Origin: Bdellovibrio bacteriovorus HD100
Lineage (GTDB): Bacteria > Bdellovibrionota > Bdellovibrionia > Bdellovibrionales > Bdellovibrionaceae
DNA: 64,000 bases
Direction of reading: 5' to 3'
Assembly: GCF_000196175.1 (NCBI RefSeq)
Contig: NC_005363.1
Span: 2,914,001-2,978,000, forward strand
In this document: positions 5,309 through 26,595 of the stretch, piece after piece
Layout: every line of letters starts with the position of its first letter
Position numbering within the stretch: the first letter of the stretch is position 1
Program-made: the position numbers and the translations under genes
Notes under the pieces: generated by a model
Told to the model about the DNA's origin: nothing
What the model saw: the letters and a program-made list of their open reading frames with translations, nothing else
Databases searched by the model: none

Positions 5309-6118
5309 TTACGCCGCCTTCTTCGCTGTATCCACTTTCAGAGCACCGTCATCCTCGCGCTGAGCAGGAGACAGGAAAGACTTCAGATATTCCTTGATAA
5401 ACAAAGGGTGCTTCTTTTCGTGAACCAGAAGAATTCCTTCTTTGATGATTTCACGCAAGGTCACGTCGGCTTTGGAAACCGTCTGCAGCTTTTCGGAAAT
5501 CGGGATCAAAATCAGATTGGCCACAACCAGACCATAGAATGTCGCCACCAGCGCGGTTGCCATCGCGGGACCGATACGATCCTGCGCACCCGGCTCACCC
5601 AGTGTTTGCAACAGGGAAATCATCCCCAGTGTCGCACCCAAAAGACCGAATGCCGGCGGGAAGCGGGACATCGTATGCCAAACTTTGATTTCTTCATCAT
5701 CGCGCTTCTTTTTACCACGCAGGGCATTTGTCAGAACGTCTGCCAGCTCATCGTAGTTAAAACCATATTCCACCAACAACTTCACACCGTCTTTGATGAA
5801 CGGATGAGTCTCTGGCTTCATCAACGCAGGAACGGATTTTGGGTCACGGCGATAGGCTTCCGAGATTTCCACGATAGTTCCAATGGTGCCCAGATAGTCG
5901 ACTCTTTCACGACCCAGCATTTTGCGGGTGACGATCTTCAGGGCTGTCCAAAGACTCTTGAAGTTGAAGCTCAACAGAGCCACGGTCAAAGTACCACCGA
6001 TTACAAGCACGATCCCGTGCACATCGGCGAACACCTTCGGATTCTTTGCCGCATCGAGGATTGAAAATACTGCAATACTGACTGCAGCCAAAATACCTAA
6101 AAGCCCCGCTATATTCAT
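5309..6118 (-). CDS. motA: MotA/PomA-type stator protein
   Basis: 269 residues from ATG at 6118, chosen because it has a strong GGAGGA site and begins the first membrane helix (MNIAGLLGILAAVSIAVFS); an ATG further upstream would add 24 residues with no family resemblance. There are four membrane helices, a cytoplasmic loop with the conserved acidic/basic region (EAYRRDPKSVP), and the characteristic second pair of helices with PPAFGLLGATLGMI and GLVVANLILIPISEKL. It forms the ion-driven stator with MotB, which follows two bases later. The loop and helix pattern is more PomA-like than E. coli MotA-like, which does not by itself settle whether protons or sodium are used. Confidence 0.93.
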   Translation of the reverse strand: MNIAGLLGILAAVSIAVFSILDAAKNPKVFADVHGIVLVIGGTLTVALLSFNFKSLWTALKIVTRKMLGRERVDYLGTIGTIVEISEAYRRDPKSVPALMKPETHPFIKDGVKLLVEYGFNYDELADVLTNALRGKKKRDDEEIKVWHTMSRFPPAFGLLGATLGMISLLQTLGEPGAQDRIGPAMATALVATFYGLVVANLILIPISEKLQTVSKADVTLREIIKEGILLVHEKKHPLFIKEYLKSFLSPAQREDDGALKVDTAKKAA

Positions 6119-6274: not shown

Positions 6275-6706
6275 ATGACGAGCCTTATTATTGGTGCATG
6301 TCTTGTGATCTTTGCGATCGAGGGACTTCTGATCAGTTTGGAGTACTTCAAGATGCAGAAGAATACAAAATTGCAATCCGCACTGGATAAAGCCAACAGC
6401 GACAAAGACCTTCTGGGCCAACGTCTGGCGCAGGCGGAGCGCGATCTGCAAAACGCGCGTGCTGAGGTTCAGGGCATTTATGTACTATGGAACAAATCTC
6501 TGGAATCCGAAAAGACCATGCGCCATGAACTGCATGTCGCCAAGACACAACTGACCTATCTTGCACAAAAAGTGATTCAGGGGGTTCCTGCTCCGAAAGT
6601 CAGCCCCCAGGCGGCGTACTGGGAAACTCAAGAGCGCACTCCGGAAGTGGCCGTTTCCAAAAACGTCCACCGGGAAAGTTATCAAGCCAATATGGATTTC
6701 ATCTAG
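6275..6706 (+). CDS. Small membrane-anchored coiled-coil protein
   Basis: 143 residues. An N-terminal membrane helix (about 3-22, SLIIGACLVIFAIEGLLISL) is followed by a charged heptad-like coiled coil at about 28-100 (KLQSALDKANSDKDLLGQRL). A less ordered tail contains PAPKVSPQAA. There is no signal peptidase site, so it is probably an inner-membrane protein. It is divergent from motA, and its stop overlaps the stop of the minus-strand gene at 6703 by 4 bp. I do not recognise a family. It could be a structural partner of either flanking envelope operon, but that is guilt by position only. Confidence 0.75.
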   Translation: MTSLIIGACLVIFAIEGLLISLEYFKMQKNTKLQSALDKANSDKDLLGQRLAQAERDLQNARAEVQGIYVLWNKSLESEKTMRHELHVAKTQLTYLAQKVIQGVPAPKVSPQAAYWETQERTPEVAVSKNVHRESYQANMDFI

Positions 6707-7926
6707 AGAGGACACTGCAAGAGCGCGTATTCCACCCCGCTCTTGCTGTTTTCCACAAACAGGTGTCTTCCCCCTGGAAGCACCGTCCACAATCCCCGCT
6801 CCGACATCGCCTTCACCGCCACCTTGTCAGTCACAGTAAACTTCTTTGCTTCCCCTGCCGGGGCGGCCACGGTCAGTCCGTATTCTTTCAAAATATTATA
6901 AGGTCTTTTTCGTTCTGCGTACCAGACTGCGCGAGGCTCCTGCTCGCCATAGACTTTGTACTCTTCGCGATAATCCAAAGGCTCCCCGGTTTCAACGGCC
7001 AAAGCCGCCGGCGCTCCTTGCAAATGAGTCAAAGGATAGAAAGCCCACTTTTCATCGCGCTCCAGCCAACCGCTGGTTTTAAAACCGATCTGCTCATAAG
7101 GTGCCACTACAAAGTCCGAAAAAGGATTGGTGCCGGCGTCCACTGATAGCCTTTGCGTTTCAAGACTCAAACGATCCGGAGCGACCTTATAGACCGCAAA
7201 GTCTTTGCCTTCACCGCTGGAATACGCCAGCAATCCGGGCTCGATACGCACACGGGCTTTGCCATTGGAATATTCCTGCCCGCACTTCAGCACACTGAGC
7301 ATATTACCGGATTCGACTCCCATCAGGGTGTCCGGGGATCTTGGGACTTCGCGCGGAATCACACTCTGCCAGGCCTGGCTATTGTAGAACCCCAGGCGTC
7401 CGTTAGCTTCCAAGGAAACAAAGGTACTCTGATTCAGGCGTCTGAAGATCACATCAGACTTCCAGTTGTGGCCACAGACCCCCAGTTGGTTCAGCATTAT
7501 TGCGCTGTCGCCCTCCATTCGGATTGGCAGCGTGCGCCCGCTATCAGTGCGCACAAAGGCCATATTGCCGAAAGTCGCAGCAAGGGAATATCTGGATTCT
7601 TCAAACGGATAAATAGCGTTGGCAATTGTCGACTTGGGTTCTAAATACGGAGTGAAGTCCTGAGTAAAACCCAATTTATTCACAATCCAGGTGTCGCCCT
7701 TGGCATTCAAGGTCAACGCACGATAGTCGCCGTCAGCAAAACGATCCATCGCTGCCAGCATCGAGGTCTGTTCAAAACGCCCGGACTTCATGGTCGTGCA
7801 TTCCGGAAGCTTGGGGCGTGGCTTGCTGTTTTCAAAGATCATCGCCAGCACCAGCCCCAGGGCAATAACCACTGCCAGGATCACGGGGACTTTAATAAAA
7901 AACGGAATGGCTTTTTTATTGGTCAT
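6703..7926 (-). CDS. Membrane-anchored periplasmic protein, last gene of surface-complex operon
   Basis: 407 residues. One N-terminal membrane helix at about 10-31 (FIKVPVILAVVIALGLVLAM) is followed by a large periplasmic domain made mostly of short beta strands with aromatic and Gly-Asp turns (DYRALTLNAKGDTWIV, RLGFYNSQAWQSV). This pattern fits a beta-propeller-like or WD-like fold without a clear family signature. It overlaps the upstream VWA gene by 11 bp, so translation is probably coupled. As the only inner-membrane-anchored member of the six-gene operon it could connect the surface proteins to the inner membrane. That role is inference; the fold call is weak. Confidence 0.72.
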   Translation of the reverse strand: MTNKKAIPFFIKVPVILAVVIALGLVLAMIFENSKPRPKLPECTTMKSGRFEQTSMLAAMDRFADGDYRALTLNAKGDTWIVNKLGFTQDFTPYLEPKSTIANAIYPFEESRYSLAATFGNMAFVRTDSGRTLPIRMEGDSAIMLNQLGVCGHNWKSDVIFRRLNQSTFVSLEANGRLGFYNSQAWQSVIPREVPRSPDTLMGVESGNMLSVLKCGQEYSNGKARVRIEPGLLAYSSGEGKDFAVYKVAPDRLSLETQRLSVDAGTNPFSDFVVAPYEQIGFKTSGWLERDEKWAFYPLTHLQGAPAALAVETGEPLDYREEYKVYGEQEPRAVWYAERKRPYNILKEYGLTVAAPAGEAKKFTVTDKVAVKAMSERGLWTVLPGGRHLFVENSKSGVEYALLQCPL

Positions 7927-9325
7927 TTTTCACCTTGCTGCAATCCAGCTTCACAAGTCCACTGTTGGATCCCATGATCACATCCTTAAAGACGCACTTT
8001 TCATCCACCCGGACTTCATAGACGCCCTTACCCAGAACCAGCGGCACATTCGTCAGATGATTTCCCAGAAGGGCAAATCGTCCGTCATAGACATAAATGC
8101 CCCGCACTTTGGCATCTTCCACCACCAAAGCCCCGGCTTCCTGCACATCATAAGTGTATTCAGCATTGGGAACAATCAGGTAGTTTTCCAGAGTCTTTTC
8201 AAAGAACGGATCGCGGTAAAGGCGGATAGCCCACTTCCCCGTTGGCAGTGGAACACGCACATCACTGGTGAATCGCTTCACCACCTTACGATTTGTGTCC
8301 AGCAGCTCAATCTTCATCAGCTTTTCAACAAAGTTCGCCTGAAAGAAACCCTGACCACCCACCTTCAGCGTCACCTTCTTTTTCGGAGGGATCACGAACT
8401 CTGAAAACTTGTATTTGGGTTTCAAGTTCACGATCGCCAGATATTTTCCCGGCGGAACCTCAATCCCCTGGGACGCATGAAACTTGCGATAGATTTCATT
8501 CGGAGAGTCGGCCCGGAATAAAAACACCGTCGCGTTGGGCTGAGGACTGCTGACGAACAGATTCTTCCCCGGATTCAGCTGCTTGTCCAAGTCCTGGAAC
8601 AGCTCTTCCAGCTTTTCTTCATCATCAGCCTGGGACATGTCACCAATACAGGCCAGCTTATCCAGAACATCCGGCTGGTTCTGTAAACCAAAAGCCACGA
8701 CAAAGAATTTTAGATCGACGTCTTTTCCGCTGAGTTCAGCCGCGATTTTACAAGGATCCTGACCGCAGGTTTCCTCTCCGTCGGTGAAAAGAACCACCCG
8801 CTTCGGGCCCTTGTAATGCTCAACATCTTTATAGGCGTCCTTCAAGGCCTGTCCTATCGGAGTCATCCCCACCGGCTCAAAGCCTTTCACAATCCCTTCA
8901 ATCGCACCCAGTTTGCTTTGTGCGGGTTCGATTGCCAGATAGTTGTCCTTGCAGTCTTTCTTGCGACGGGATCCAATCACCCGCAGACCACTGCTGGTCT
9001 TTTCGGTCCACTGGGACATCAGATAGCGGGCCAGCAGTTTTTTTAGAACATAGATTTTGGTTTTCTTCGGCCCCATCAACTGCCCCATGGAACCGGAGCT
9101 GTCGATGACATATTCCACCAGCGGAATGGCGGTCGATGGCAGATCTTCGGCCTTCACTTCGCCCGAGGCATTGGCGGGAATTTTGGAGGGATCAAAATCC
9201 ATCTTATCAAGAAGATCCTCAGCTTTTAACTGCGTCATTCCCTGCGGCACGGAAGGTTCGTCCTTTTCCTGGGCCGAGGAGGCAAAAGCACACAAAGTCA
9301 GAACCAGCAGAATCAGCTTTTTCAT
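7916..9325 (-). CDS. VWA-domain protein with complete MIDAS
   Basis: 469 residues with a signal peptide (MKKLILLVLTLCAFASSA). A von Willebrand A domain spans about 68-250 and all MIDAS metal-binding elements are present: DSSGS at 75-79, Thr155 in GMTPIG, and Asp182 in FTDGEE. The domain also contains several cysteines (DCKDN, ETCGQDPC, LACIGD) that may form disulfides. About 200 C-terminal residues form beta-rich segments with basic patches, perhaps carboxypeptidase-regulatory-like domains (VPPGKYLAIV, VPLPTGKWAIRLY). VWA domains of this kind mediate metal-dependent protein adhesion. It overlaps the barrel gene upstream and the membrane protein gene downstream. Secreted VWA adhesins are known in myxobacterial gliding; whether this one is comparable is inference. 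Confidence 0.88.
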   Translation of the reverse strand: MKKLILLVLTLCAFASSAQEKDEPSVPQGMTQLKAEDLLDKMDFDPSKIPANASGEVKAEDLPSTAIPLVEYVIDSSGSMGQLMGPKKTKIYVLKKLLARYLMSQWTEKTSSGLRVIGSRRKKDCKDNYLAIEPAQSKLGAIEGIVKGFEPVGMTPIGQALKDAYKDVEHYKGPKRVVLFTDGEETCGQDPCKIAAELSGKDVDLKFFVVAFGLQNQPDVLDKLACIGDMSQADDEEKLEELFQDLDKQLNPGKNLFVSSPQPNATVFLFRADSPNEIYRKFHASQGIEVPPGKYLAIVNLKPKYKFSEFVIPPKKKVTLKVGGQGFFQANFVEKLMKIELLDTNRKVVKRFTSDVRVPLPTGKWAIRLYRDPFFEKTLENYLIVPNAEYTYDVQEAGALVVEDAKVRGIYVYDGRFALLGNHLTNVPLVLGKGVYEVRVDEKCVFKDVIMGSNSGLVKLDCSKVKNDQ

Positions 9326-10494
9326 CGTGGTTTCAGCATCTTTCCGACATAGTCTTCCATGCGAAGACCAATCATGATTCGAATGAAGTTCTGGCTTTCT
9401 TTGTAAGTGCCGCCTTCAGGAATACTATAAAAACCATCCGGTGCATTGGTCGGCGCCCCGGAGAAAGTCACCTGACTGGAGCTCATCCCCGTGCTGACAT
9501 CCACCGAGAACCTCTTGAAGAAGGGAATAAAGCCCATGTGCACCAGGGTTGTCGCCCCAAGGGAAAGCTCCATCGCTGTTCCTGTAGAGCTGTCTCCCCG
9601 GGTGACTCCGCTGTCTTTCATCGAATAAGACGGGAAATAGGTCAGGTCGAAGTAAATACGGTTGAAGCTCCAGTCGAAGGACTTTTCTGAGTTGAAGATA
9701 TTTGGACCAAACAGATAGTGGAAGTTTGCACCAAGCCCCATGCCAGAACCCGCACTGCTCAAAACATACTCATCGTCATTGGCAGTTTTGAAATCCGTGG
9801 ACTTGGTCACAAGCTTCAGCGTGGGACGCAGCTCTTTCCAAATTGGCAGAAAACGGTAATGAATCGCAATCATGCTTTCGCGATAGGTGGTTTGTTTTTC
9901 TTCGCGATTGTAGGATTTCACCGGCACACTGCCACCGGAACTGCGGTATTCAAGACCGATCCTCCACAGGAAGTCGAAGTACCACATCAGATGAGTGTCC
10001 ATGAAATTGTGTTCAAAGGTTTTGTACTGGTTGGCTTGGTTGGGAGAGGCACTTTCGATCTTCCCTTGATAAGGGCCGAAATCCAATTGTACATAACCCT
10101 GTTCGTAAGGATCCGGTTCGTCCGGCTGGAGGCCGCCTATTGGCGGGACTTCAGGTTCATCGTACTTTTTTTCCTGAAGCCGCGCCAGACTGACCACGCG
10201 GTCACGAACTTTCGGGAACTTGGTGATGGTTTTTGAGTCCAGCAGAATCAGGAACTTTCCATCCTGGATGTTTTCAACAGAGCCCCGGGAAATGACCTCG
10301 ATGTCGTCATCCTTGATGCGCGCAATAACCACCAGGTCACCGACCCGAACCAGCGGTGTTGATGCGACGATCACCACATCATCATTAACCCCGATGATGG
10401 GCACTGAGTTCTTCCGGATCACATCCGGATTTATGATGCTGGCAAAGCAGACATTGGCGAAAATGAATATGCTGAAAAATAGATGAAGCCTCAC
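9322..10494 (-). CDS. Outer-membrane beta-barrel with N-terminal periplasmic domain
   Basis: 390 residues. The signal peptide (MRLHLFFSIFIFANVCFA) is followed by a small beta-rich domain at about 20-110 (VIIGVNDDVVIVA-like strands) and a Pro/Glu/Asp-rich linker (EPEVPPIGGLQPDEPDP). From about 130 to the end come long amphipathic strands rich in Tyr, Trp and Phe (HLMWYFDFLWRIGLEYRS, FNRIYFDLTYFPSYS), as in a large beta-barrel. It lies between the giant Ig-like lipoprotein gene and the VWA gene, overlapping the latter by 4 bp. It may be the outer-membrane anchor or export channel of the surface complex. No specific family is recognised. Confidence 0.75.
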   Translation of the reverse strand: MRLHLFFSIFIFANVCFASIINPDVIRKNSVPIIGVNDDVVIVASTPLVRVGDLVVIARIKDDDIEVISRGSVENIQDGKFLILLDSKTITKFPKVRDRVVSLARLQEKKYDEPEVPPIGGLQPDEPDPYEQGYVQLDFGPYQGKIESASPNQANQYKTFEHNFMDTHLMWYFDFLWRIGLEYRSSGGSVPVKSYNREEKQTTYRESMIAIHYRFLPIWKELRPTLKLVTKSTDFKTANDDEYVLSSAGSGMGLGANFHYLFGPNIFNSEKSFDWSFNRIYFDLTYFPSYSMKDSGVTRGDSSTGTAMELSLGATTLVHMGFIPFFKRFSVDVSTGMSSSQVTFSGAPTNAPDGFYSIPEGGTYKESQNFIRIMIGLRMEDYVGKMLKPR

Positions 10495-10537
10495 AGGTAA
10501 ATTCTATGAGGCCTCTCTGAAAGATACAATTCCAAAG

Positions 10538-13500
10538 CTAGCGTGCGCGGTAAATCCGGCCCTTGCTGCGACTGACAAGAAGGATCTGACCCGAGTCAAA
10601 ACTGACAATACTGTCGACTGGATCCTGCACGGAATTCGCATAGACCTGATAGCTGTCCAGATCGATAGTGAACACCTGATTGGCGTCTTTCATGGTCCCG
10701 ATGATCATTCGATCATCGGGACGGATCACCAGACGACGCCCCTGCCCCGGCACATCAAATGGCGAGCTGCTGATCTCATTGACCCCGACAAACTGAACAT
10801 CCGCCGCCGTCGGAGTTTTAGCAGGCCCGTCGGTCAGGACGGCAACGCCACCCGTTCCAGACAGCAATGCCATCACCCGATGCGAGCTCACATCCACAAC
10901 CAGATCCGTCGGTTTGCAGTCCTCATGCCCTGCAACCCCATCCCACAAAGTAATCTGGGCAACCAACCCAGGTGTTCCCCCTGAGCGGACATTGCTGACA
11001 TTGAAGACAAACAGTTTGTGCGAAACAGATGGACTGGTCTGCTGGGTCGCCACGTACAGGCGTTCCAGATTTTTATTCAAGACCATTCCTGAAATTTTGG
11101 CGGTGCCGAAGTTGTAGATCTGAACAGCACTGGCCGGATTCAGATAGTCATAAAGCAACTTGTCGCCGTTGTCTGAAGCATAGAAGACATACGATGAATC
11201 CAAGGACTCAGTCAGACGCAAATCCGAGTTCAGGCTGCTTGTGAACAAATTCTGAGGACAGTCACCTATACACTTGTTTCCTGTACCCAGGCTTAAGCCC
11301 GTCAGATCCGTCGCCGGGATACGCAGTGCTTCTGTCGTCAGACCAAACGGACCTACACGCCCCGTTTGCGATGTGAGCAGAATATCAAAGCTGCCGGACG
11401 TCTTCACCAAAGCCATACGCTTGGTCTGAGTGCCTGCCAACCAAGGCAGATCTTCCATAAAGTTCCATGGAGGATTCACCAGGGTACCATTGGGCTTGTT
11501 CATCGCCCCATTCACCAGAGTCAGATCCCACAGAAAGTGCTTGGTGAACATGCCCAGTGTGTAGGTTCCCGCAAAGACCAGGTGATCGACGATGTTCGAC
11601 CCCAGAGTCAGCGTCACCGGCACCTCGTTAAGCCAGTTCAGGGACAGCGGATTCATCGATGGCAGACTTTCGGGACGGGCCGCAAAAATATCAAAAAGTT
11701 TTTCCGCCAACAGGTAGTTGTTGCGGATCTTCACTTTCCATTCCTTGGTTGCCACATAGTTTCCGTCGGTGGCTTCCGCCCGGATCATGAATTCGCCAGC
11801 TTTCAGAGGGCCTGCACCATCCGGATCCACTGAGGCATCCGTGTCTTTGGCTTTGAATTCAAAGTTCGGACCCTCGTCATAACGAAGCTCATCGTTCACA
11901 TACCAACGATAGAAAAGTGTATCGTTCGCATTCGGATCCGATGCCGAGATCGAGAAGGACACCGGCGCTTTTTCCGACGCCAGAACATCCGTTCCCGCTG
12001 GCAGGAAGCTGTTGATTACCGGTGATGTTTCAAACGGCGACAGCGGATTTTGCACTTTCAGATAGAAGCTGACCGTGTCCGTTTCCTGGGTTTTCAGGTC
12101 ACGCACACGGACGCGCACCTGATGACCGTCCCCGCCTTCTGCAGTCACATCGGCCGGATAGGCCGGATTCCAGCTGATGATTCCTTTAGCCGAATCGATG
12201 CACATGCCGTTGGCTTCAGCGCACGGACGCGGAGAGGTCACCAGTGAATACTCCAGGGAGTTTCCTTGGGAGTTATTGACGATCACTGGATACTTAAACG
12301 GTGCTGACGGCATACTGGCCGCCGTGTGCGGCATAAAGTGAACTGGCGTTCCCGCCAGGTTCTGACGAGGGCTCACGAAGTAAGCCGGTGCCACGACATT
12401 GATTCTAAGCGGAGTCGCACTGGCAGAACGAGGCAACGTCAAACCATCGCGGTCCACATCGCCATTGTCATTCACGAACAGTTCCGCAGAGTGCTCACCA
12501 ATATGAGTTCTTTGTGGGCACCATTCCATTTTATAGCGCTGGCGCAAAGCACTACCAACCAGCTCTGGCGCCCCTACCGGAGTCAGCTTTGGCACTGCCA
12601 AATCCAAATTCAAATTAGTCCCATCACCGCACTGAGAAACTGAGACATTGCGTTTGTAAGTGGCATCGTACGTCGCAATTTCGGGAGCCCAAGTTGTGCT
12701 GTTGGCATGGCACGAATAAGGATCGGCCACCACCGGATCCAATGTCGCATGCCGCAAAGGCACACCATTGGCGTCCCGGCACAGAGTCATCAGTGTTGAG
12801 AAGCTACCGCCACTAGGAACATAGGCGTCACTGTCGTAGAGGTAAATATCCTGACTGAAATAGGTGTCAGCAAAAATACGGAAGTTATTACCAGAAACAA
12901 TTTCAGCAATCGATGGCACCTGATTTTTATTGATCAGGCGGATTTTATAGAAGGCATCCGTGGACTGCTGAATATCCGGCATCGTTTTGGCATCATAGAC
13001 GCGCATTTTTACAACCAAACCATCCGTGCCTGAGAATTTTTTTGAGTCAGAATCCGTCGGATTCCACACCAGCTTGGCAGTGGTCTTGGAGCCAGGTCCC
13101 GGGGTGAGTGCTTCGCGTTTTTCGATGAAAACAGACAGACCTTCCGGCCTTGGCACCCACGTCGAAGTCTTTAAGTCATACACTTGGGCATCAAGATCGA
13201 AATTGACCGTCTGAAGCTCGGATCCTTTGTTGTTATCCACAGCATAAATATTGTAGATAGACTCGGTGGCTTCATTGAAATCCCCCAGAGTCAAAGGAGT
13301 GCCCAACGCAGCTCCGGTACCTCCGGCCAATGGTGTGAAACTGCTGTTCGTCAGCACCGGCTTGGTATTGATCTCTTTCACCACCAAAGTCACATTCGTC
13401 ACAGTGCTCAGAGTTCCCCAAGGGGACCTTTCAACAGCCGTGACCTTGAAACTGAAGTTTCCGGAATAGTCACTCGGGTGTGGAGTGTAGCGGAAGTAAC

Positions 13501-16714: not shown

Positions 16715-16742
16715 CCCCTGCCCCCGCAGAAATCAAACGTAC

Positions 16743-19700
16743 TTAATAGAGTAAGAAGAAGTTCCCCACATCAATACCGTTGATCGGCGCATGACCGTCA
16801 TGTCCCTCACTTGGAACCATGATGTCCATAGTGCCATCCCCATTCACATCCCCGGATGAAGTGTTCAAATAGAAGTAATTTGGTGACGTTTCGGTGTCCT
16901 CGTACTGGATTACATAGGGCTTCATGCGCCCTTGCGCATCCCCGACAACCACCGTATCCGGATAATCTGCAGAGTGCAGACCCACGCTGGAGCCGAAGAA
17001 GACAAGTCCACGTCCCAGTTGGCTGTTACCGCTGATTGAATCGTCATAGCCATACGACCCCAGAATCACGTCATCAAATCCGTCGCCATTGAAGTCGCCT
17101 TTTTTCATACGGCCTGTCATGACCTCACTGCCGACCATATCCCCACCTTTCGCATCCCAGGCATAGAAGGCCTGAGGTGCCGGTTTCGGTGTTCCCACGG
17201 AACGGATGCATTGCAGGCCCGCACCACCACCTGGCAGGTCCGGATCCGTGTACAACATCTGCTTGTTCAGATTGGTCTCCAGATAATCCCACATAGTTGT
17301 ATTGTTATCAGAACCGCACAATGGGCCATAATAGACATAGGCCATACCACTGTCAGAGAAGCCTGATTTCGGTGACTCTTTCGGAGCCGTCACAATCAAG
17401 TCCTCATAACCATCGCTGTTCAGGTCCCCGGCTGAATCCAAACGATACCCGAAGTAACGGCCGATGCGGTTAACTCCCAGGTCCCCGTTCAAAATCGGCG
17501 GCATCAAACCATACACGCGGCCCGCAGCGCCATCCTGATCCAACGATGGATCCAGATTCTGGAACTGGTCGTCGTCAGTGCACGATCCACCCATATAAGT
17601 GGAGTTGTAATAGCTGTCACGATCCGCAGCCTGAATACCGTTGCTGCTTCCCTGATACAGGAATAAACGACCGTAGTTGGAACGACTGTCGGCATCATAG
17701 TAACAAGCCAGATCCTCCCAGCCCGGAGCTGAAACAACCAGGTCGTCGATGCCGTCTTTGTTATAGTCCATCACCGCTATGCTTGCGCCGAACATGTGAC
17801 GAAGGCGATCGTAACCATAGTTCACGTTGCGCACCATCGGACTGTAAAGGTACTGCATCTTGCACGAGTGGCCCGGAGCCCCACTGCAGGCTTTGTTGGC
17901 AACCGCTGCCGCCTCTGTCCCATAGGTGTCGATCATGTAGTTTGAGTTCGACGACAAAAGATTCGTGTTCACCGTCGGTTCATTGTCCGTTGGCGTATAA
18001 CCCTTGACCTTCGGAGTCTGAACCCCTGAAGAAGAGCCATACCAGATGAACACACGACCCATTTCAACAGCCTGAACACCGTTCAAACAGCTTGAATCTG
18101 CTTCGTCATAACACTGCCAGCCCTGCCCCGCCGCCGGCGGATCACCGAATGGAGGATTCACGTCGCTGATACTGGTCCCTTTGTTCATCGTAAAGAATGA
18201 TGGAGCTGTCGGAACTGCCAGAACCAGATCCGAGTACCCATCTCCATTGAAGTCACCGTGATGAATGACCTTACGACGGTGAGGCGAAAGCTCATCCATC
18301 CCAAGGAACTCAGAGCCCCACGAAATCGGCGACCAGCGCGTTGTGATATACTGCGGATCACCGGCAGCCGGAAGCCACTTCGGATTGGTCACCGCCTGAA
18401 GCCCCCCACGGGAACCGTAGTAGGCCACAACCTGACCGCCTGTACCCGGATCCAGGAAGATCACGTCCGCAAAACCATCCCCGTTGATATCACCACCGTC
18501 AAAGGCGCGAATAGCCCAGCCGGAACTTAAGTTCGTCGGTTTGCTGATCAACTGTGGCAGGGCAATATCACTCAGTGTCACCCCTTGCGCCGGATTCACG
18601 GATGGATAGCAATAGTTTTCATTCTGATTCTGTGGTTTGAATACACGCGCCAGATTGCCCTTGCAATAAGACGTGGTGATCAACCCCAGATTGGATCCGA
18701 AGAACACCACCGCATCCGTCGTATAAGTTTTGCTGTTTGCCGAAGGACGGGATATCTGGGCCACTGCATCCGCATATCCGTCACGGTTGATATCACCGAC
18801 GATGCGAATGCTTTCGAAGTTAAGGCTCTGCGGGCTGGCCGCGTGGTCCACCATTTTTTCTGCAGGCACAGAGTTCACAGAAGACAGAGGCTGACCTTTG
18901 GAGTAGTAGCCGAAGGCGGCTCCACCACCCAGCTTTGTCGACTTGTCCAGGTAAGATCCAACGAACACGTCATTCAGCGGCGTCAAACCGGAATAGTCCC
19001 CGTCAAAATTGCCCACAGCCACGGAGCGGCCGAAGTAGTCATAGGACTGCCCCTGATAGTTGTACAGATGCAGGAAGTTGGAGGTCAGCCCCACACCGGA
19101 CAAACTTGTAAACACATAAGCTGCTCCGGAGTTGGTCGCTTTCGTTCCATCTCCCGTCGCACCCACGACAACATCTTTCAGTCCATCACCTGTGACGTCA
19201 CCGACCGCCATCGCTTCCGGATAAAGTCCCAGATAGTAATTCGAACCAATGGAATTGGAGCGAATCAGTGTCGGGGCACATTTACGCTTGGTGAGATTGT
19301 TGTTCGTATCAAAGCGGTCACACTGGGAAGACCCGTCATTCCAGTCGCTGTCCTTGATATTAGGATCCACGGCATCGATACCCTTGAAGGCATCCATTTC
19401 ATAAAGTTTGAACGGATTTCCATAAAAGACCCACAATGCGCCTGAATTGGTTTTGGAGCCATTATTGAAATAGCTGCTCGAAACCACTGCTTCCGCCCAT
19501 CCGTCTGCATTCGTGTCGGAAGGACTTGTCAACGCCGTGTTGGTTGCATCATAGCGAGAATGATCACCGACCAGAGCGACAGATGTCCCGAAGCCACGTG
19601 AAGTCATTTTTACACCTGAGCCCACCTGATCATCTTTATAGAAGCTGCGCGGGAACAAAATGCGGAAGCCGGCTTTATTGGTCAGGCACGAGAAGTGTTT

Positions 19701-21959
19701 GTTCGTATCCATCTTGCGGTTACCGCAGAACCAGAACTGGTTGCGGTACGTTTCATCCTCTGTGGCTGATGCCGAAGGCGCTGACCGTCCGAAGTAAACA
19801 TAGGCTGCTCCCGGAGCCGAGCCCACACCAGCCGCCGCATTATTGACCGGCAAACTGTAGTAATTGACCCCGCTTGGGAACGAGAAGCCAGAACTTCCCC
19901 AGCCACCTTCCGCTGGCGGAATTGCCGCGCAGGTATCCGGAGTCGAACAGCTGGCGGTCGTTGCCTTGATTTTCGCGCTTTGTGCCTGGATATACCGGTC
20001 TCCGGGCGCCCCTACGATCATGTCAGCGCCGCCCACCAGTTTCCCGGCAGAGTTGCGAATTCTGTAGCCACCATCCACATCGGCCCCGCCATGAATGGCA
20101 TGACCAAAGCGGGCTCCATAATGCGGAGTCGGTGCATAGATCTTCAGGAAACGGAACTTGGGATGAGTGGCGTTCGGAATAGCCCCCGCCGTCGGAGTTT
20201 CATAACCGATACCGGATTTGGAACCAAAGTACATGGCCACAAACCCTGTTTCTGGCTCATACTTTGAATCCCCTGGCAAATTCGGAGCTGGTGTCCCGTC
20301 CCAGTTGCCACGTGGCGCCCCGATGGCGATGTCATCATATCCATCACCATTGAAGTCACCAACAAAGGAAACCGCGTGCCCAAATTCGGAATTGTTGCCT
20401 GTCGGTGAACGTCCCGCCTGATCCCAGTGCGACGAAGGCCACAAGGATGTATCCGGCCACAACATCACAGCGGAACAAGTCGCCCCCTCAACAAGGCCGT
20501 TACAAGTTTCAAAGTTTTGCTGCATGTCTTTGATTTTGGTCGGAGACTTCAAGCCCTCAGCACTTCCGAAGAAGACAAAGGCCGAGCCATCATACTCATA
20601 AGGGCTGTAGGAGGTATCCTGCCCTGGGGCCCCGACCACCAGATCCTGACAGGCGTTACCCAAACGAGTGTCCCCGTTCAGATTTCCACTGCCGGACATG
20701 GATTTTCCAAAGCGTGCGTAAGGTGTCAGATCCTCAAAAGTGATGATCTGCGGATCCAACCCGGGAACCGCCGGATTCTGCACCGGATCCGGGGACGTTT
20801 TCAGTTTGAAACTTGCTGAACCTGTCGGCTTATAAGAATAGTAAATATAAACCGCACCGGCATTGGCAGATTTCACCCCCAAAGAGGCAATGGACATGTT
20901 CGGCAGGCCGACGGCGAGATCCGGCTGACCGTCACAGTTGAAGTCACCGGAGGTCATGGATTCGCCCATGTAAGCCACACCCGCGTCCGCCGCCGCAACA
21001 GGAGGCATTTCCTTATAACCCGGAATACCCTTGATGTAGGTGCTAAGATTATCAAAAATCAGAGTTTCATTTTTCGCACCGTCATTATAGTTCACACGAA
21101 TGGACAGATCCTCAATTTTACCGATCGTCCAGTTGGCCGAAGGCGAAAACACGATAGTGCCCGCGCCCACCAGCGGATCTGATACCGCTGTGTTACCCAT
21201 GTAAACCCGGCTGACATAGTTTTCATTTTTGTATTCAGAATTCACGACCGGCGTCACCTTCGCAAATGGCAAAGCACCAATCGAAATCGGGCTCAGCTCA
21301 TAGGCCGGTGTCGGGAAGGACGAGTTCGTGGAACCCGTCACCACTTTGGTGGGACGTTCATAGGTCTCATCCTGATACTTCACCTGAACGACGAAATGAA
21401 AGCGTGTCGATCCCGTCATGTTACGGAAGATATAGCGATTCTCCAGCGAAGTGCGATCCACCGCGGTCCAATTGGCAGTGTTTTCTGCCGTGGGATCCTC
21501 GTACTCTTTAAAGAAGATCTGATATTCAGCCACCTTGTTTGGATAGTCCCAAACCAGGATCAAATTGCCGTCGGCATCCTTGGAAACACTGCCGGCGCCA
21601 GTAAAGGGCTTGTAGGTGGTGACCGTGATCTCTTTATTGCCACCGACACTGTTGGTTCCATCAGTCGCCACCACTTTGAATGTATAGCTGGTGTTCGGCG
21701 CCAGATCACGAATGATCACAGAGTCCTGGAACGTTTCTGCCACCGCATCAGATGAAAGATTGTAATAGACTTTGTACTCGCGATAACGACTGTGCAACTG
21801 CCAGTAAACCCGGACCGCGGTTGGAGACAGCACTTCAACGCCCTCGGCTCCGGTAAAGTCACGCAGCAGACTTCCGGTCTCCAGCTTCTCTGTACAAGCC
21901 GCAAGGCTCAACAGACCCGTCAGCAGGACAGTTTTGAAAATCCTTTTAATAGAGAACAT
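16743..21959 (-). CDS. Integrin-alpha-like FG-GAP repeat lipoprotein B
   Basis: 1738 residues from ATG at 21959. That start has an AGGAG site eight bases upstream and opens directly into a lipoprotein signal (MFSIKRIFKTVLLTGLLSLAAC); an ATG at 22052 would add 31 unrelated residues. Two fibronectin-III-like domains (about 30-240) follow. Then roughly fourteen FG-GAP/VCBS repeats carry calcium-loop motifs of the form D-x-N-x-D-G-x-x-D (GDFNGDGYDDIAIGAP, GDLNSDGYEDLIVTAP, GDVNGDGTMDIMVPSE), enough for two seven-bladed propellers. The start lies inside the 3' end of the preceding paralogue (14-bp overlap). Family members bind proteins or glycans on surfaces. I infer a surface-exposed or periplasm-facing lipoprotein used for attachment. 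Confidence 0.88.
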   Translation of the reverse strand: MFSIKRIFKTVLLTGLLSLAACTEKLETGSLLRDFTGAEGVEVLSPTAVRVYWQLHSRYREYKVYYNLSSDAVAETFQDSVIIRDLAPNTSYTFKVVATDGTNSVGGNKEITVTTYKPFTGAGSVSKDADGNLILVWDYPNKVAEYQIFFKEYEDPTAENTANWTAVDRTSLENRYIFRNMTGSTRFHFVVQVKYQDETYERPTKVVTGSTNSSFPTPAYELSPISIGALPFAKVTPVVNSEYKNENYVSRVYMGNTAVSDPLVGAGTIVFSPSANWTIGKIEDLSIRVNYNDGAKNETLIFDNLSTYIKGIPGYKEMPPVAAADAGVAYMGESMTSGDFNCDGQPDLAVGLPNMSIASLGVKSANAGAVYIYYSYKPTGSASFKLKTSPDPVQNPAVPGLDPQIITFEDLTPYARFGKSMSGSGNLNGDTRLGNACQDLVVGAPGQDTSYSPYEYDGSAFVFFGSAEGLKSPTKIKDMQQNFETCNGLVEGATCSAVMLWPDTSLWPSSHWDQAGRSPTGNNSEFGHAVSFVGDFNGDGYDDIAIGAPRGNWDGTPAPNLPGDSKYEPETGFVAMYFGSKSGIGYETPTAGAIPNATHPKFRFLKIYAPTPHYGARFGHAIHGGADVDGGYRIRNSAGKLVGGADMIVGAPGDRYIQAQSAKIKATTASCSTPDTCAAIPPAEGGWGSSGFSFPSGVNYYSLPVNNAAAGVGSAPGAAYVYFGRSAPSASATEDETYRNQFWFCGNRKMDTNKHFSCLTNKAGFRILFPRSFYKDDQVGSGVKMTSRGFGTSVALVGDHSRYDATNTALTSPSDTNADGWAEAVVSSSYFNNGSKTNSGALWVFYGNPFKLYEMDAFKGIDAVDPNIKDSDWNDGSSQCDRFDTNNNLTKRKCAPTLIRSNSIGSNYYLGLYPEAMAVGDVTGDGLKDVVVGATGDGTKATNSGAAYVFTSLSGVGLTSNFLHLYNYQGQSYDYFGRSVAVGNFDGDYSGLTPLNDVFVGSYLDKSTKLGGGAAFGYYSKGQPLSSVNSVPAEKMVDHAASPQSLNFESIRIVGDINRDGYADAVAQISRPSANSKTYTTDAVVFFGSNLGLITTSYCKGNLARVFKPQNQNENYCYPSVNPAQGVTLSDIALPQLISKPTNLSSGWAIRAFDGGDINGDGFADVIFLDPGTGGQVVAYYGSRGGLQAVTNPKWLPAAGDPQYITTRWSPISWGSEFLGMDELSPHRRKVIHHGDFNGDGYSDLVLAVPTAPSFFTMNKGTSISDVNPPFGDPPAAGQGWQCYDEADSSCLNGVQAVEMGRVFIWYGSSSGVQTPKVKGYTPTDNEPTVNTNLLSSNSNYMIDTYGTEAAAVANKACSGAPGHSCKMQYLYSPMVRNVNYGYDRLRHMFGASIAVMDYNKDGIDDLVVSAPGWEDLACYYDADSRSNYGRLFLYQGSSNGIQAADRDSYYNSTYMGGSCTDDDQFQNLDPSLDQDGAAGRVYGLMPPILNGDLGVNRIGRYFGYRLDSAGDLNSDGYEDLIVTAPKESPKSGFSDSGMAYVYYGPLCGSDNNTTMWDYLETNLNKQMLYTDPDLPGGGAGLQCIRSVGTPKPAPQAFYAWDAKGGDMVGSEVMTGRMKKGDFNGDGFDDVILGSYGYDDSISGNSQLGRGLVFFGSSVGLHSADYPDTVVVGDAQGRMKPYVIQYEDTETSPNYFYLNTSSGDVNGDGTMDIMVPSEGHDGHAPINGIDVGNFFLLY

Positions 21960-24900
21960 AGACGACTCCTGTCGAGAATGCCTTGCCGGATGGATGATTA
22001 CGGCCTGGTGCAGCCAGTACAACATCGGAAACTCCGTCTCCGTTGATGTCACCGTTCACACTGTTGGATATGTAACTGTATTCATAAGCTTTGCGTTCGG
22101 GCAGATACAGCAGCATTGGCTCACAAAGAGGTGCTGAACCACCGTAACAGCGCGGGGTTGTTGTCGGCGTGGAATTGATCTTCAATCCCAGCAAACTGCC
22201 ATAGTAAACCACGAAGGCCCCGGAATCAGCCTGCACCTCTTCCAGGTCATAGTCTTTGCCCGGCATGTTCACAATAATGTCGGCGTAGCCGTCGTTATTC
22301 ACATCACCCACTCCGGCAAGGCCATATCCAAATCCGTCTCCGGAATCGAAGATGGCATCAGTTCCCAGGACCTCAAGTCGCTGAGGCTTTGGCTGGGACT
22401 GGCTGGTGTGCAGAGTGTTCTTGGCAATAGGGCTGGAGCCGGCCAGGAACAGATCCGTGGTGGCCAAGGACGTGGAGCCATAGAAAGCGTAAGCACTGCC
22501 CACCTGGCCGCCATAGAAGGAATAGACTTTTCCAGCCACCGGAGCCGACACCACGATGTCGACCACTCCGTCTCCGTTAATGTCACCTGCTGAGGCGACT
22601 TCAAAGCCAAAGCGCTCCGCCGCCGCGGCCGGATCCAGTTTTTGAATCGGCGTATAGCCCAGACCTCGCGCGCCACCCTTGAACAGATAGATGCGCCCCT
22701 TGAACGACGTCAAAGACGGATCACTGACAACCAGCTCGTCGCTTTCCTCGCCGGCCAGAACATCCAGAGAATCAGTCCCGACGATGCTCCACCCGAAGGT
22801 CACACCTGTGTCGGAGGAAGCCAGCATCTGCACTTTACAAACTTTGGGCAGCGTCTCACTGCATGGATTTTCCACCAGAACATCGGCCGCCGCTCCCAAA
22901 TCGTCCTGCAGACGAATGGTTCCGGTCGCACGATTGGTCTGTGGACCCGTGGCAGAGCCGTAAATCACGAACACACGGCCTTTGTTGGCTGCCGACATGT
23001 TCACACCACCCGGGATCACGTCCAAACTTGGCGTCAGGTTGGTCGCTGTGCCCAGGGCAAAATCCCCGTACCCATCGGCGTTGAAGTCACCAAAGGCGAC
23101 CGCACGGTTGATGGAGGCAAATGTACCAACAGACAATCCGGAAACCGGGAAGGACCCGTGCATATTTCCATCCGTATGGAAGGAAATCGTGTTCACGCCG
23201 CCGATACCGAATCGAAGGGGATTTTGCCCCACCGGTGCCAACGAAGGCGCATTGGCATAAACCACACCGCTGGAAGAGCCATAATAAATGTAACTGCCAT
23301 AGGTGCCCAGAATCAGCAGATCGTCGTAAGCATCACCATTCACACTGCCAATGCGGTGGAATTCCCGGCCAAACCCTGAGTCGCTGTCCACAGCCAGCTT
23401 CAGTGGCGCAAGAGGCGTCGCCGGATTTCTTGATGGCTCCGGTGTTGTCACCAGACCACCGGCACTGCCATAAAAAATCACTAGTTCAACAGTGCTGGCC
23501 ACGGAAATATGGGTAACCACATCAGCGTATCCATCCCCGTTCAAATCACCGACGATCTTGGCACGCTCATAGTGATAGTTCAGCTCTTTACTGAAATTCA
23601 CATTCACTGTCTGATCCGGGTTCGTCACCGACGCGGCGAAGGAACCGTTGGAATTAAAGACAAAGGCCGCTCCGTTGTAATAAGACGGATTGGAAAGATA
23701 AGGGGCGCCAATAATCAGATCCCCGGTTTTATCACCGTTGAAATCCGCGCCAGCCATACCACCACCACCGATCTGCGCACCGGCGGTCATGTCTTTGGCA
23801 TAAATAATAGAGGCACCGAATGGATTTACGCCACCGCTGTACCAGGTACAGTTGGTTGCGCAACCATAAGAATCATCATCGGACAACTGGGGAGCATCGA
23901 TACGCACACCCGCTTCGGTTCCCAAGGTGGAAACGTCAGGTTTGTACAAATAGACCACACCGTGATTCACAATGCTCTTTTTACCATCACTGCTTGTGAC
24001 CGTGCGGTAAGGCACACCCACCGCCAATGATGGAAGTCCTCGCGTGACATCCTCGATGTCCGCCACTGTTCCCAGGGAACGCCCGTACTGAACGCCCGCC
24101 TCAGAGGGACTGGTGTGCAGCGCCTGATTTTCACAATGCTCAAGACTGCCGGTCACGACATTGCGATTTTTCGCGTCACACGCCAAAGAGTTCACGGCAT
24201 TCACCGTTTGCATCGGCTCCAAAATTCCCTGCAATCCCCCGGTCGTAAAGTCCGCCGACCGTGGAGTCATGTAGTAACCGAACACCACACCGGCGTTGGT
24301 GCGGCCAGAGACCGTTGATGTTGGTGCACCGACAAACACGGCACCGGAAACATTTGGAGTCGAGTTGGTTGTGCCGATCACCTTGGTCAAAGGATAACCA
24401 TTCTGATTCGGCACCCCCAGCAGAGAATATCCGTACCCTTTCACCGTGATGTGAGAGGCACTGATTCCCTGGGTCGTGTCAGGGTAGGACTCTTTACACA
24501 TCCAGCTGGTTATTTGCTGCAAGTCCGACCCGGAAGTCGGCTGCACACCTTTACATGCCAGGATTGAGCCGCGTCCCGCAGCACGGGCCGGCACCCCGAT
24601 CACAAGATCATCACACTTGTTGAATTCAAAGCCTTTGTTCTTTGGTGCAGGTGAGGTTCTAAAGACATAGCCCCCGCCATTTTCGCAGGTGCGCGAGTTG
24701 TATGCCGAAGCCACTGCTCCGCCAAAGTCCTCGGCAACGCTTGTGCCGGCAAAAGATCCATCCGTCAGATCACCCGCACCGATGGTCTCAGCATCAATTT
24801 TGGCGTGGCTTTTCACCGCACTTGCAGGATAAAGCCCGAAGCGGTCTCCACGCAGAACGTGAATCTGACGTTTGCTGGCATTCGTCGTCACACCCATGGC

Positions 24901-26595
24901 CAGATCGTCATAACCATCATTGTTATAATCACCAAAGGTGATGGAATGCACATACGCTGTCGTGGAATCGCGATACTTCGCCGGACGACATTTGAAAGAC
25001 GTCGGGTCACAAGTGGCCTCATTCAGACCATAAGCACTTCCGCCAGCGCCCGTCACCAGGCCTCGGACCGGATCACCGAAAACAACAAAGACCGCGCCAT
25101 CGTTGGTCTGCATGGCAAGGTCATCACAGGTATGAATCTCTTTAAGCTTGTTCAAATCAGCCGGCGGCACCGCCGGAGTGTAAAGGTCGTCACAAAGACC
25201 CACACGATTGATCTTCGGATCGTTATCGGTGACACCTTCAGGCGGTTTATAGCGGCTGAAACAATCGCCATTCACATTCCCGACAGCGATGCGAATTCCC
25301 AGACGTGCATCTGAGGTCAGATCGGTGTAATAAATCAGCTGTGGATCCGGGAAAGAAGCATCCGCTGTCGGCACCACATCCGTTTTCAAACGCGGTTTGG
25401 GGCGAACGATATTTCCGTCAGCGTCGATCTCGTCCGGTGGCTGATACCCGTAAAACACAGAGACCGCACCCGTCGCATCATAGTGCCGTTCGCTGATATA
25501 AGGTGTCGCACGCGGAGCCGATACGGCCACATCTTTGTAACCGTCACAGTTAAAGTCACCAACCTGGATACCGTTACCCAACTCCTGCATGCCAAGCCCG
25601 CCACCGATAAGACGCGGCAACAAGGGAGCCTTGGCACCCGCCCCTTCCAGGCTTCGCACCAGAGGTTTGCTCAAGCCCGGCAGCCCATCCGGCTGAACAT
25701 CCACAATGGTCACCTTGCCATCCGTTGCCGTAACCTTGGCGTAGATGTTCTTCACACCCGGATCAATTGGAATGATGGAACGGAAATAGTCATTGCCGCT
25801 CACTGTCGCCAGACGAATGTCTGTAAAGCGTTCGAAAATCTCGGTCTTGTAAGTAGAATCCCCGCCCTCAGTCCAGAACCACGGGAAGTTGCCCACGAAC
25901 GCTGAGTTCATCCGAACCGCTGGCAGATTCGACAGCTGGGACTGAACCAGCACACACGGTGCTTTGGAATTCAGATACGTTTCACTCATGTTCGACGGTT
26001 CAAAAGTGCCGTCATCATAGAACGCCATCACCCAGAAGCAGTACTTCGCACCGCTGGGCAGGGAATTCACAAGAGAGGTGCTCTTATTGACCACCGTGGT
26101 GACCGCATTTGTTAGATCCCAGGATTCGCTTTCACGCTTTGCGAAGATCTTGTAAGTGACACCGTCTCCGTTTTTCACCCAGCTGACTTCCACAGAACCA
26201 TTGGACTGGGACTGCAGGCCCGAGGAAGGAATGCCCGAGAAATTCGCGAGCGTCTTGACGGTCATGTAGCTGTCGAAACCAAACTCTTCATCTGTCGTTG
26301 CGTCCACGCCGGACGTAGAAAATTCATAGTAGCTGTCCGGAGTCAGACTGTTCAGTGTCGTGGTCGCGAACGTTTCAGTTTTCTTCGGGGTATTAAAACC
26401 TTTTTGATAGACTCGATATTCTTTGAATCGCGCCTGCAGAGGCCATGATAGTCTTACACTCGTTGGCGAAATAGCCACGGCGCTTTCCAAACCGTTGAAT
26501 TTAGATGGCAAGTTGGTGCTTTGAAGACCTGCTTTCGCACAGGAAATCAGGACACCACATGCAACGTACAAAAGTAGTGATAGAAGACATTTCAT
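21946..26595 (-). CDS. Integrin-alpha-like FG-GAP repeat lipoprotein A, first gene of operon
   Basis: 1549 residues with lipobox LISC at about residues 16-19. The order is the same as in its neighbour: two fibronectin-III-like domains (SPTSVRLSWPLQARFKEYRV; the paralogue has SPTAVRVYWQLHSRYREYKV), then about eleven FG-GAP repeats (GDFNCDGYKDVAVSAP, GDYNNDGYDDLAMGV, GDINGDGVSDVVLAAP). Cysteines are frequent between repeats and may form disulfides. Both proteins end in an aromatic residue (VVYVLY and NFFLLY). The pair arose by tandem duplication and has since diverged strongly. The Shine-Dalgarno match is poor (GAGG 15-18 bases before the ATG). It heads the six-gene operon, so the operon promoter should lie in 26596-26900. 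Confidence 0.87.
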   Translation of the reverse strand: MKCLLSLLLYVACGVLISCAKAGLQSTNLPSKFNGLESAVAISPTSVRLSWPLQARFKEYRVYQKGFNTPKKTETFATTTLNSLTPDSYYEFSTSGVDATTDEEFGFDSYMTVKTLANFSGIPSSGLQSQSNGSVEVSWVKNGDGVTYKIFAKRESESWDLTNAVTTVVNKSTSLVNSLPSGAKYCFWVMAFYDDGTFEPSNMSETYLNSKAPCVLVQSQLSNLPAVRMNSAFVGNFPWFWTEGGDSTYKTEIFERFTDIRLATVSGNDYFRSIIPIDPGVKNIYAKVTATDGKVTIVDVQPDGLPGLSKPLVRSLEGAGAKAPLLPRLIGGGLGMQELGNGIQVGDFNCDGYKDVAVSAPRATPYISERHYDATGAVSVFYGYQPPDEIDADGNIVRPKPRLKTDVVPTADASFPDPQLIYYTDLTSDARLGIRIAVGNVNGDCFSRYKPPEGVTDNDPKINRVGLCDDLYTPAVPPADLNKLKEIHTCDDLAMQTNDGAVFVVFGDPVRGLVTGAGGSAYGLNEATCDPTSFKCRPAKYRDSTTAYVHSITFGDYNNDGYDDLAMGVTTNASKRQIHVLRGDRFGLYPASAVKSHAKIDAETIGAGDLTDGSFAGTSVAEDFGGAVASAYNSRTCENGGGYVFRTSPAPKNKGFEFNKCDDLVIGVPARAAGRGSILACKGVQPTSGSDLQQITSWMCKESYPDTTQGISASHITVKGYGYSLLGVPNQNGYPLTKVIGTTNSTPNVSGAVFVGAPTSTVSGRTNAGVVFGYYMTPRSADFTTGGLQGILEPMQTVNAVNSLACDAKNRNVVTGSLEHCENQALHTSPSEAGVQYGRSLGTVADIEDVTRGLPSLAVGVPYRTVTSSDGKKSIVNHGVVYLYKPDVSTLGTEAGVRIDAPQLSDDDSYGCATNCTWYSGGVNPFGASIIYAKDMTAGAQIGGGGMAGADFNGDKTGDLIIGAPYLSNPSYYNGAAFVFNSNGSFAASVTNPDQTVNVNFSKELNYHYERAKIVGDLNGDGYADVVTHISVASTVELVIFYGSAGGLVTTPEPSRNPATPLAPLKLAVDSDSGFGREFHRIGSVNGDAYDDLLILGTYGSYIYYGSSSGVVYANAPSLAPVGQNPLRFGIGGVNTISFHTDGNMHGSFPVSGLSVGTFASINRAVAFGDFNADGYGDFALGTATNLTPSLDVIPGGVNMSAANKGRVFVIYGSATGPQTNRATGTIRLQDDLGAAADVLVENPCSETLPKVCKVQMLASSDTGVTFGWSIVGTDSLDVLAGEESDELVVSDPSLTSFKGRIYLFKGGARGLGYTPIQKLDPAAAAERFGFEVASAGDINGDGVVDIVVSAPVAGKVYSFYGGQVGSAYAFYGSTSLATTDLFLAGSSPIAKNTLHTSQSQPKPQRLEVLGTDAIFDSGDGFGYGLAGVGDVNNDGYADIIVNMPGKDYDLEEVQADSGAFVVYYGSLLGLKINSTPTTTPRCYGGSAPLCEPMLLYLPERKAYEYSYISNSVNGDINGDGVSDVVLAAPGRNHPSGKAFSTGVVYVLY

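Follow-up and report, generated by a model that had tools for sequence, protein, structure and literature searches.

In the bacterial flagellum, FliF carries two transmembrane (TM) helices and the RBM1/2 domains, and canonical FliG carries an EHPQ motif for FliM binding and a DDR motif for torque. The Agl-Glt gliding system of Myxococcus is described as an ion-driven motor with a TPR periplasmic protein, paired outer-membrane barrels and a VWA lipoprotein (PMC4488436), and AglRQS comprises one subunit of the MotA/TolQ/ExbB type and two of the ExbD/TolR type (PMC3169522). For gliding of Bacteroidota (GldLM, SprB), a 5:2-type rotary motor moving outer-membrane adhesins is given as a feature of the type IX secretion system (T9SS), whose GldLM is described as non-homologous to MotAB (PMC13104615). 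Bdellovibrio bacteriovorus HD100 glides (PMC3271064), and section 8 of a 2026 review states that this gliding is independent of flagella and pili and that its machinery in B. bacteriovorus is unidentified (PMC13104615). Here we analysed a window of 64,000 nucleotides of HD100 (positions 2,914,001-2,978,000 of its single-contig genome of 3,782,950 bp), which holds a block of six genes, called A to F below, at 6703-26595, and further genes that belong with them. We propose, with a probability of about 0.58, that HD100 has, besides its flagellum, a rotary machine powered by ions, and that A-F form the part of it that lies in the outer membrane and at the surface.

Compared with these systems, the HD100 gene set shares with the flagellar MS-ring, C-ring and stator an RBM3-like ring domain, FliG_M and FliG_C folds, and MotA/MotB with an OmpA-type domain. 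It differs from the flagellum in that the FliF and FliG parts lie in one chain of 577 amino acids (aa) with one predicted TM segment after a signal peptide, that the EHPQ and DDR motifs are lost, that the genes are linked to those of outer-membrane and surface proteins, and that its MotA (MotA2) is distant from the other MotA proteins of HD100. The likeness to Agl-Glt in outline means that the two appear to work alike according to the descriptions; membership in Agl-Glt or T9SS is not claimed. Unlike Agl-Glt, the HD100 set combines MotAB, the FliF/FliG fusion and FG-GAP lipoproteins, and its stator pair is of the MotA-MotB type, whereas AglR has two partners of the ExbD/TolR type (AglQ and AglS); the text of PMC3169522 does not use the word FliG. 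The set also recalls T9SS gliding in the general plan of a rotary motor that would move outer-membrane adhesins, and the T9SS families (GldLM, SprA and others) gave no match in NCBIfam scans of parts of the set and some of the neighbours.

A preliminary description of the six genes had suggested a dedicated adhesion or export machine covering the whole envelope. Conserved linkage and co-occurrence argue for a dedicated, envelope-spanning machine, but the six genes would be its outer half only, and a MotAB pair and a FliF/FliG-like fusion protein in the set argue for a machine that works as a motor and not for one of passive adhesion or export. It is evident that the gene set extends well beyond the block. 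The stator genes motA2 (5309-6118) and motB2 (4347-5306), both on the minus strand, encode a MotA-family protein and a MotB with a TM segment and an OmpA-type peptidoglycan-binding domain, and their matches to the PomA type (3e-41) and the MotD/MotB type (4e-37) all fell below the equivalog cut-offs; judging from gene order, they correspond to Bd3021 and Bd3020. The C-terminal tail of MotB2 was considered as a special feature and dropped, as the other long MotB of HD100 (318 aa) has a similar tail.

The rotor candidate is an RBM3-TM-FliG fusion protein whose gene crosses the window edge, with the first 384 of its 577 codons at 1-1153 on the minus strand (whole gene G000:C1:2913420-2915153, L128:9421-11154). 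Both FliG domains were found by Pfam, FliG_C (PF01706) at 4.6e-10 and FliG_M (PF14841) at 1.4e-7, and the conserved relatives of about 580-630 aa also gave FliG domain matches. A model built on a relative of 585 aa (L064) with five alignment rows shows an alpha-beta-beta-alpha-beta domain at 32-145, a long helix at the TM segment (167-196) and a helical remainder. With this model, Foldseek returned 13 FliG chains at E<=5e-5 (FliG at 7e-8) and, with lower significance (E about 1e-2), chains of FliF RBM3/MS-rings. VIA-align, which supports no claim on families outside its list, matched it to FliF RBM3 (Z 11.5, root-mean-square deviation (rmsd) 3.3 over 96 residues) and to FliG_C of the MotAB-FliG complex (Z 9.8, rmsd 2.0 over 88 residues). 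The predicted fold thus includes the ring-building RBM3 fold of FliF according to VIA-align, with a Foldseek E of only about 1e-2, and from the two fold matches one chain is predicted to join the roles that FliF RBM3 and FliG have in the flagellum. The architecture is not that of FliF, since the fusion protein has a signal peptide, one TM segment and one RBM-like domain.

To see how the parts are distributed, profiles of D, the fusion N-terminus and MotA2 were searched in one set of 368 genomes of the phylum. The D profile found 25 of the 368 genomes. The fusion profile found 34 at E<=0.001 and 26 at E<1e-50, and the eight weak genomes (E 1e-7 to 7e-4) are not among the 26 counted. MotA2 was found in 25 genomes at 422 bits or more, the next best match being at 287 bits, and as a fragment in G009 on the same contig as the fusion gene; with this fragment counted, the MotA2 and fusion genome sets are identical (26/26). 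D and the fusion protein are common to 24 genomes (Fisher p 2.8e-34, with genomes treated as independent, which they are not). D occurs without the fusion protein in G313 (87% complete), and the fusion protein without D in G219 (84% complete, about 690 contigs) and G311; the contig of G311 stops within C (99.8% identity to the G314 protein over 526 aa), so that its D may be unassembled. In 17 of the 24 shared genomes, moreover, a single contig holds D, fusion and motA2 in a span of at most about 36 kb, in several orders; in the other seven (G009, G229, G305, G307, G308, G309 and G318) they are on different contigs. As for the weak fusion hits, the idea that they are canonical FliF was dropped, as the three that were read (L167, L168 and L170) appear to be other proteins with a signal peptide, a periplasmic part and a TM segment, and the gene of L170 (L203:9298-11022) had no FliG match in Pfam. 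As a separate observation, proteins of about 560-620 aa that are weakly fusion-like are encoded at L203:7867-11022, L208:8568-11705, L202:4139-7258 and L204:8324-10180, in three of the four cases beside motA-like genes.

The block of six genes is real, all open reading frames (ORFs) being present on the minus strand, and its genes overlap or lie tens of bases apart as had been described, with an overlap of 14 bases between A and B, gaps of 28 (B/C) and 43 bases (C/D), and overlaps of 4 (D/E) and 11 bases (E/F). A (21946-26595) encodes a lipoprotein of 1549 aa with two fn3 domains (4e-6), FG-GAP propeller repeats (1.2e-39) and seven Ca-loop motifs, and B (16743-21959) one of 1738 aa with fn3 (3.8e-8) and FG-GAP repeats (2.4e-57) and nine Ca-loop motifs. 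Judging from the sequence, the start of B is very probably the ATG at 21959, which places the lipobox cysteine at position 22, and not the GTG at 22052 of the ORF list. C (10538-16714) encodes a lipoprotein of 2058 aa with weak PKD/cadherin-like repeats. The earlier picture of three giant lipoproteins with propeller and Ig-like repeats holds for the lipoboxes of A (Cys19), B (Cys22) and C (Cys18) and for FG-GAP in A and B, and was too strong for C, whose Ig/PKD-like repeat matches (tand_rpt_95, PKD_4) lie only below the curated cut-offs. D (9322-10494) can be equated with the outer-membrane barrel with a periplasmic domain that had been recognised before; its AlphaFold model (mean pLDDT 84.8) predicts an N-terminal periplasmic domain of SH3-like fold with six strands, followed by a barrel of ten strands, and the nearest solved folds are barrels of the OpcA, FadL and OmpT types (Foldseek E 1e-6 to 1e-5). 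E (7916-9325) is an exported VWA protein (2.3e-8) with a signal peptide, recognised by eye, and no lipobox; its conserved MIDAS metal site (DxSxS, T, D) is intact, with D75, S77, S79, T155 and D182 invariant in all ten aligned rows. F (6703-7926) has one N-terminal hydrophobic TM segment and a large outer domain, in agreement with the membrane-anchored protein of the preliminary description.

Gene order was also compared. All six other Bdellovibrio species for which the whole block was fetched share the order A-B-C-D-E-F-(convergent gene)-motA-motB, which argues that the block is more than chance and rules out an arrangement peculiar to HD100. In other genera and families the order is shuffled: A-B-C and D-E are kept together while the remaining genes move. 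One genome has fusion-A-B-C-D-E-TPR-motA-motB in one run (G028), another has D-E-motA-motB-OMP-TPR-x-fusion-OMP-A-B-C, where OMP is an outer-membrane protein (G057), and in a third D-E is divergent from A-B-C, and A-B-C leads into two smaller genes and then fusion, motA, motB, OMP, TPR and OMP (G304). A-B-C are consecutive in all 16 genomes where all three were fetched, and D-E are adjacent in 22 of the 24 inspected, the exceptions being G004 (E is 27 kb away) and G306 (the contig begins at D). A fixed gene order was therefore rejected as a hallmark; linkage is the conserved trait. By direct search of 59 genomes, HD100 included, D was found in 11, E in 14 (generic VWA matches included) and F in seven; F is restricted to the genus in this search, and a frame after E in G004 has a similar N-terminal look by eye. 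A search for E in named genome contigs gave 19 loci, of which 16 were long matches in Bdellovibrionota or unplaced Proteobacteria metagenome-assembled genomes and three were generic VWA matches elsewhere.

With regard to transcription, the minus-strand genes of the set in HD100 fall into the units A-B-C, D-E-F, motA-motB and TPR-OMP-P325-fusion, with two plus-strand genes between them. The preliminary description had read the six genes as an operon; a single transcript is not secure, however, because a strong terminator-like hairpin of 12 pairs with a T-rich tail (10485-10515, minus strand, z -3.8) lies in the C-D gap. This hairpin sits at the point at which, in other families, the modules come apart, and its sequence suggests that it is possibly a partial terminator or attenuator there. 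In the promoter scan, promoter-like matches were not in excess over shuffles.

The two plus-strand genes encode a small TM/coiled-coil protein (6275-6706), convergent and lying between F and motA2 in all seven Bdellovibrio, and a protein of 205 aa resembling a small outer-membrane barrel (3686-4303), conserved with the set and with a Pfam match below cut-off. The fourth unit, whose genes overlap by 1 to 4 bases, starts with a TPR lipoprotein (2711-3619, lipobox Cys27), also conserved with the set and with a PEGA match below cut-off; it is followed by a second protein resembling a small outer-membrane barrel (194 aa, 2127-2711, Pfam match below cut-off) and a weakly conserved TM-anchored protein of 325 aa (1150-2127), all on the minus strand. 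On the plus strand and convergent with the adjoining fusion gene in 7/7 Bdellovibrio stretches, L128:7673-9424 encodes a membrane protein whose C-terminal part looks like a phosphatase (PP2C/SpoIIE type, by eye), a possible regulator. At the other end, a membrane-anchored repeat protein of 1000 aa (27437-30439, plus strand) is divergent from A and stands beside the block in five of the seven Bdellovibrio stretches; it has a weak relative in G004 and a FecR match far below cut-off.

Gene content, conservation, co-occurrence, domain identities, predicted folds and linkage were computed; from these we infer ring formation, torque, coupling across the envelope and surface exposure of A-C. In the proposed machine, MotB2 would be anchored to the peptidoglycan, and ion flow through MotA2-MotB2 would turn MotA2, which would push against the fusion protein at its cytoplasmic, FliG-like end. 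The RBM3-like periplasmic domains would build a ring, with MS-ring and C-ring joined in one chain, and the movement may be passed via the TPR, TM-anchored and SH3-like (D) periplasmic domains to D, the two small barrels, E and A-C. The propeller lipoproteins A-C would be outside, where they may travel over a surface or prey or hold on to it. Gliding or moving adhesins seem to us the most likely output, though on the whole this is a tentative assignment; the alternative would be a rotary or force-sensing adhesion complex. Gliding fits best because HD100 glides and this movement is described as not depending on flagella or pili, with a machinery that is stated to be unidentified.

Several points weigh against this proposal. 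The fusion model has a pLDDT of 70 and a pTM of 0.31 from five rows, and none of 13 fusion proteins has the EHPQ motif (one has EHPK) or the DDR motif of the torque helix, while all three canonical FliG proteins compared have both, which makes torque via the usual charge pairs doubtful. Each profile of the co-occurrence survey was trained on 10 to 13 of the genomes counted. Within the genus Bdellovibrio, 9 of the 24 genomes have the set, and the other 15 lack D, fusion and MotA2 alike. Flagellin is present in each of the 27 genomes that carry at least one of these three parts, and FlhA in 26 of them, so that no flagellum-free carrier was found. The three motAB pairs of B. bacteriovorus reportedly all contribute to motility by the single flagellum, according to the title of a paper of 2011. 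In fliL mutants, expression of motA2 and motB2 was altered (PMC11323537). Finally, Agl/Glt homologues at Bd0828-0838 are an older gliding candidate (PMC3169522); this candidate and the lack of the set in most Bdellovibrio genomes suggest a possibility that the set is one of several gliding engines, or a force-driven adhesion device.

Flagellin in every carrier, the title on the motAB pairs and the expression shifts in fliL mutants would also suit a flagellar accessory, in which MotA2B2 would serve as an additional stator, the fusion protein as a rotor ring, either alternative or auxiliary, and D, E and A-C as parts of the sheath or of motor-associated disks of the sheathed polar flagellum. The test by FlhA and flagellin is uninformative, because FlhA is present in 313 of the 368 genomes anyway (26/27 vs 313/368, p 0.07). 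On the other hand, 287 genomes, including 15 of the 24 of the genus, have FlhA without the set, which is therefore not a core flagellar part. The FliM-binding motif is lost in the fusion protein, and FliL-Bd1076 was described to bind MotB3 and not MotB2 (PMC11323537). Moreover, MotA2 scored 529 bits with its family model and the two other MotA proteins of the motA-motB type in HD100 only 86 and 54, and in a MotA tree a branch (64/99) splits the 25 MotA2 rows off from all others, although the flagellar branches are very long (4.9 to 10), so that the distance is sure and the exact position is not. A flagellar accessory is thus unlikely, though it is the rival that survives best. The window also contains a flagellin N-terminal domain (46624-47034, plus strand).

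Energised export or surface display, in which ion flow of the MotAB type would place or recycle the giant lipoproteins in a Tol/Ton-like manner without a rotating surface structure, would explain why three giant lipoproteins and several barrels accompany the motor genes, and it continues the export reading of the six genes. We know of no FliF/FliG-like ring protein in Tol and Ton systems, and the best solved matches of D are closed barrels of the adhesin and OmpT types and FadL, so that we consider it improbable. Lastly, static or force-sensing adhesion, in which A-E would be adhesins and their linkage to motor genes that serve something else would reflect shared regulation, agrees with the hairpin between A-C and D-F and with the need of the VWA MIDAS adhesin Bd0875 for normal prey entry in B. 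bacteriovorus (PMC11003981), but is hardly probable, since stator, rotor fusion and D, though patchily distributed and reshuffled in order, are strictly inherited together, and since G028 has a single run from fusion to motB.

The rotary envelope machine that we prefer may have relatives. E resembles Bd0875 in being a VWA/MIDAS protein of the same species, and the bd0875 gene likewise lies near a gene with a FliG_C domain; Bd0875 differs in being a 378-aa lipoprotein, as E lacks a lipobox and belongs to a large cluster with MotAB. We identified the 378-aa protein at L224:8925-10061 as Bd0875 by its length and by C22, D66, E213 and Y349, residues named in PMC11003981. The FliG_C-domain gene (PF01706, 2.9e-6; L224:10106-11011) begins 44 bases after it, outside the window at about 826.9-829.0 kb of G000:C1, and this linkage was found in 7/7 genomes inspected, with no same-strand gene between in four and one in three. 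Thus, pairing of a VWA adhesin with a FliG-like cytoplasmic protein recurs. A second, diverged cluster in G028 (L060:1830-14311), present also in G024 (L212), has the order VWA, 359-aa protein, TPR, 631-aa protein with FliG_M, 192-aa protein, motA, motB and two fn3 proteins, and resembles a sister type of this machine. In G304, a FliG_C protein of 776 aa (5e-14; L201:7235-11210) directly precedes another motA-motB pair. There are further non-standard FliG-MotAB units in the phylum.

In the literature, preprints and most subscription papers lying outside the scope, searches on Bd3022-Bd3028 found nothing on these genes, and combinations of FliG, gliding, MotAB and non-flagellar gave no description of the system, as judged by title or the start of the abstract; a search on FG-GAP with Bdellovibrio gave nothing related, as judged by title. 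It is conceivable, though we hold it only as a speculation, that Bdellovibrionota possess a class of non-flagellar rotary machine that spans the envelope, consists of a MotAB stator and a FliF/FliG rotor in one chain and drives integrin-like propeller and VWA proteins at the surface, with the HD100 machine as an engine of gliding and prey handling and the FliG-VWA pairs as its relatives.

If the proposal is true, a flagellar-type stator and a fused FliF/FliG rotor would work outside the flagellum, tied to a surface complex, which would bear on the origin and re-use of rotary motors. The analysis supplies named genes for the stated open problem of the gliding machinery of B. bacteriovorus, and MotAB2, so far treated as a flagellar stator, is recast as a possible non-flagellar motor.

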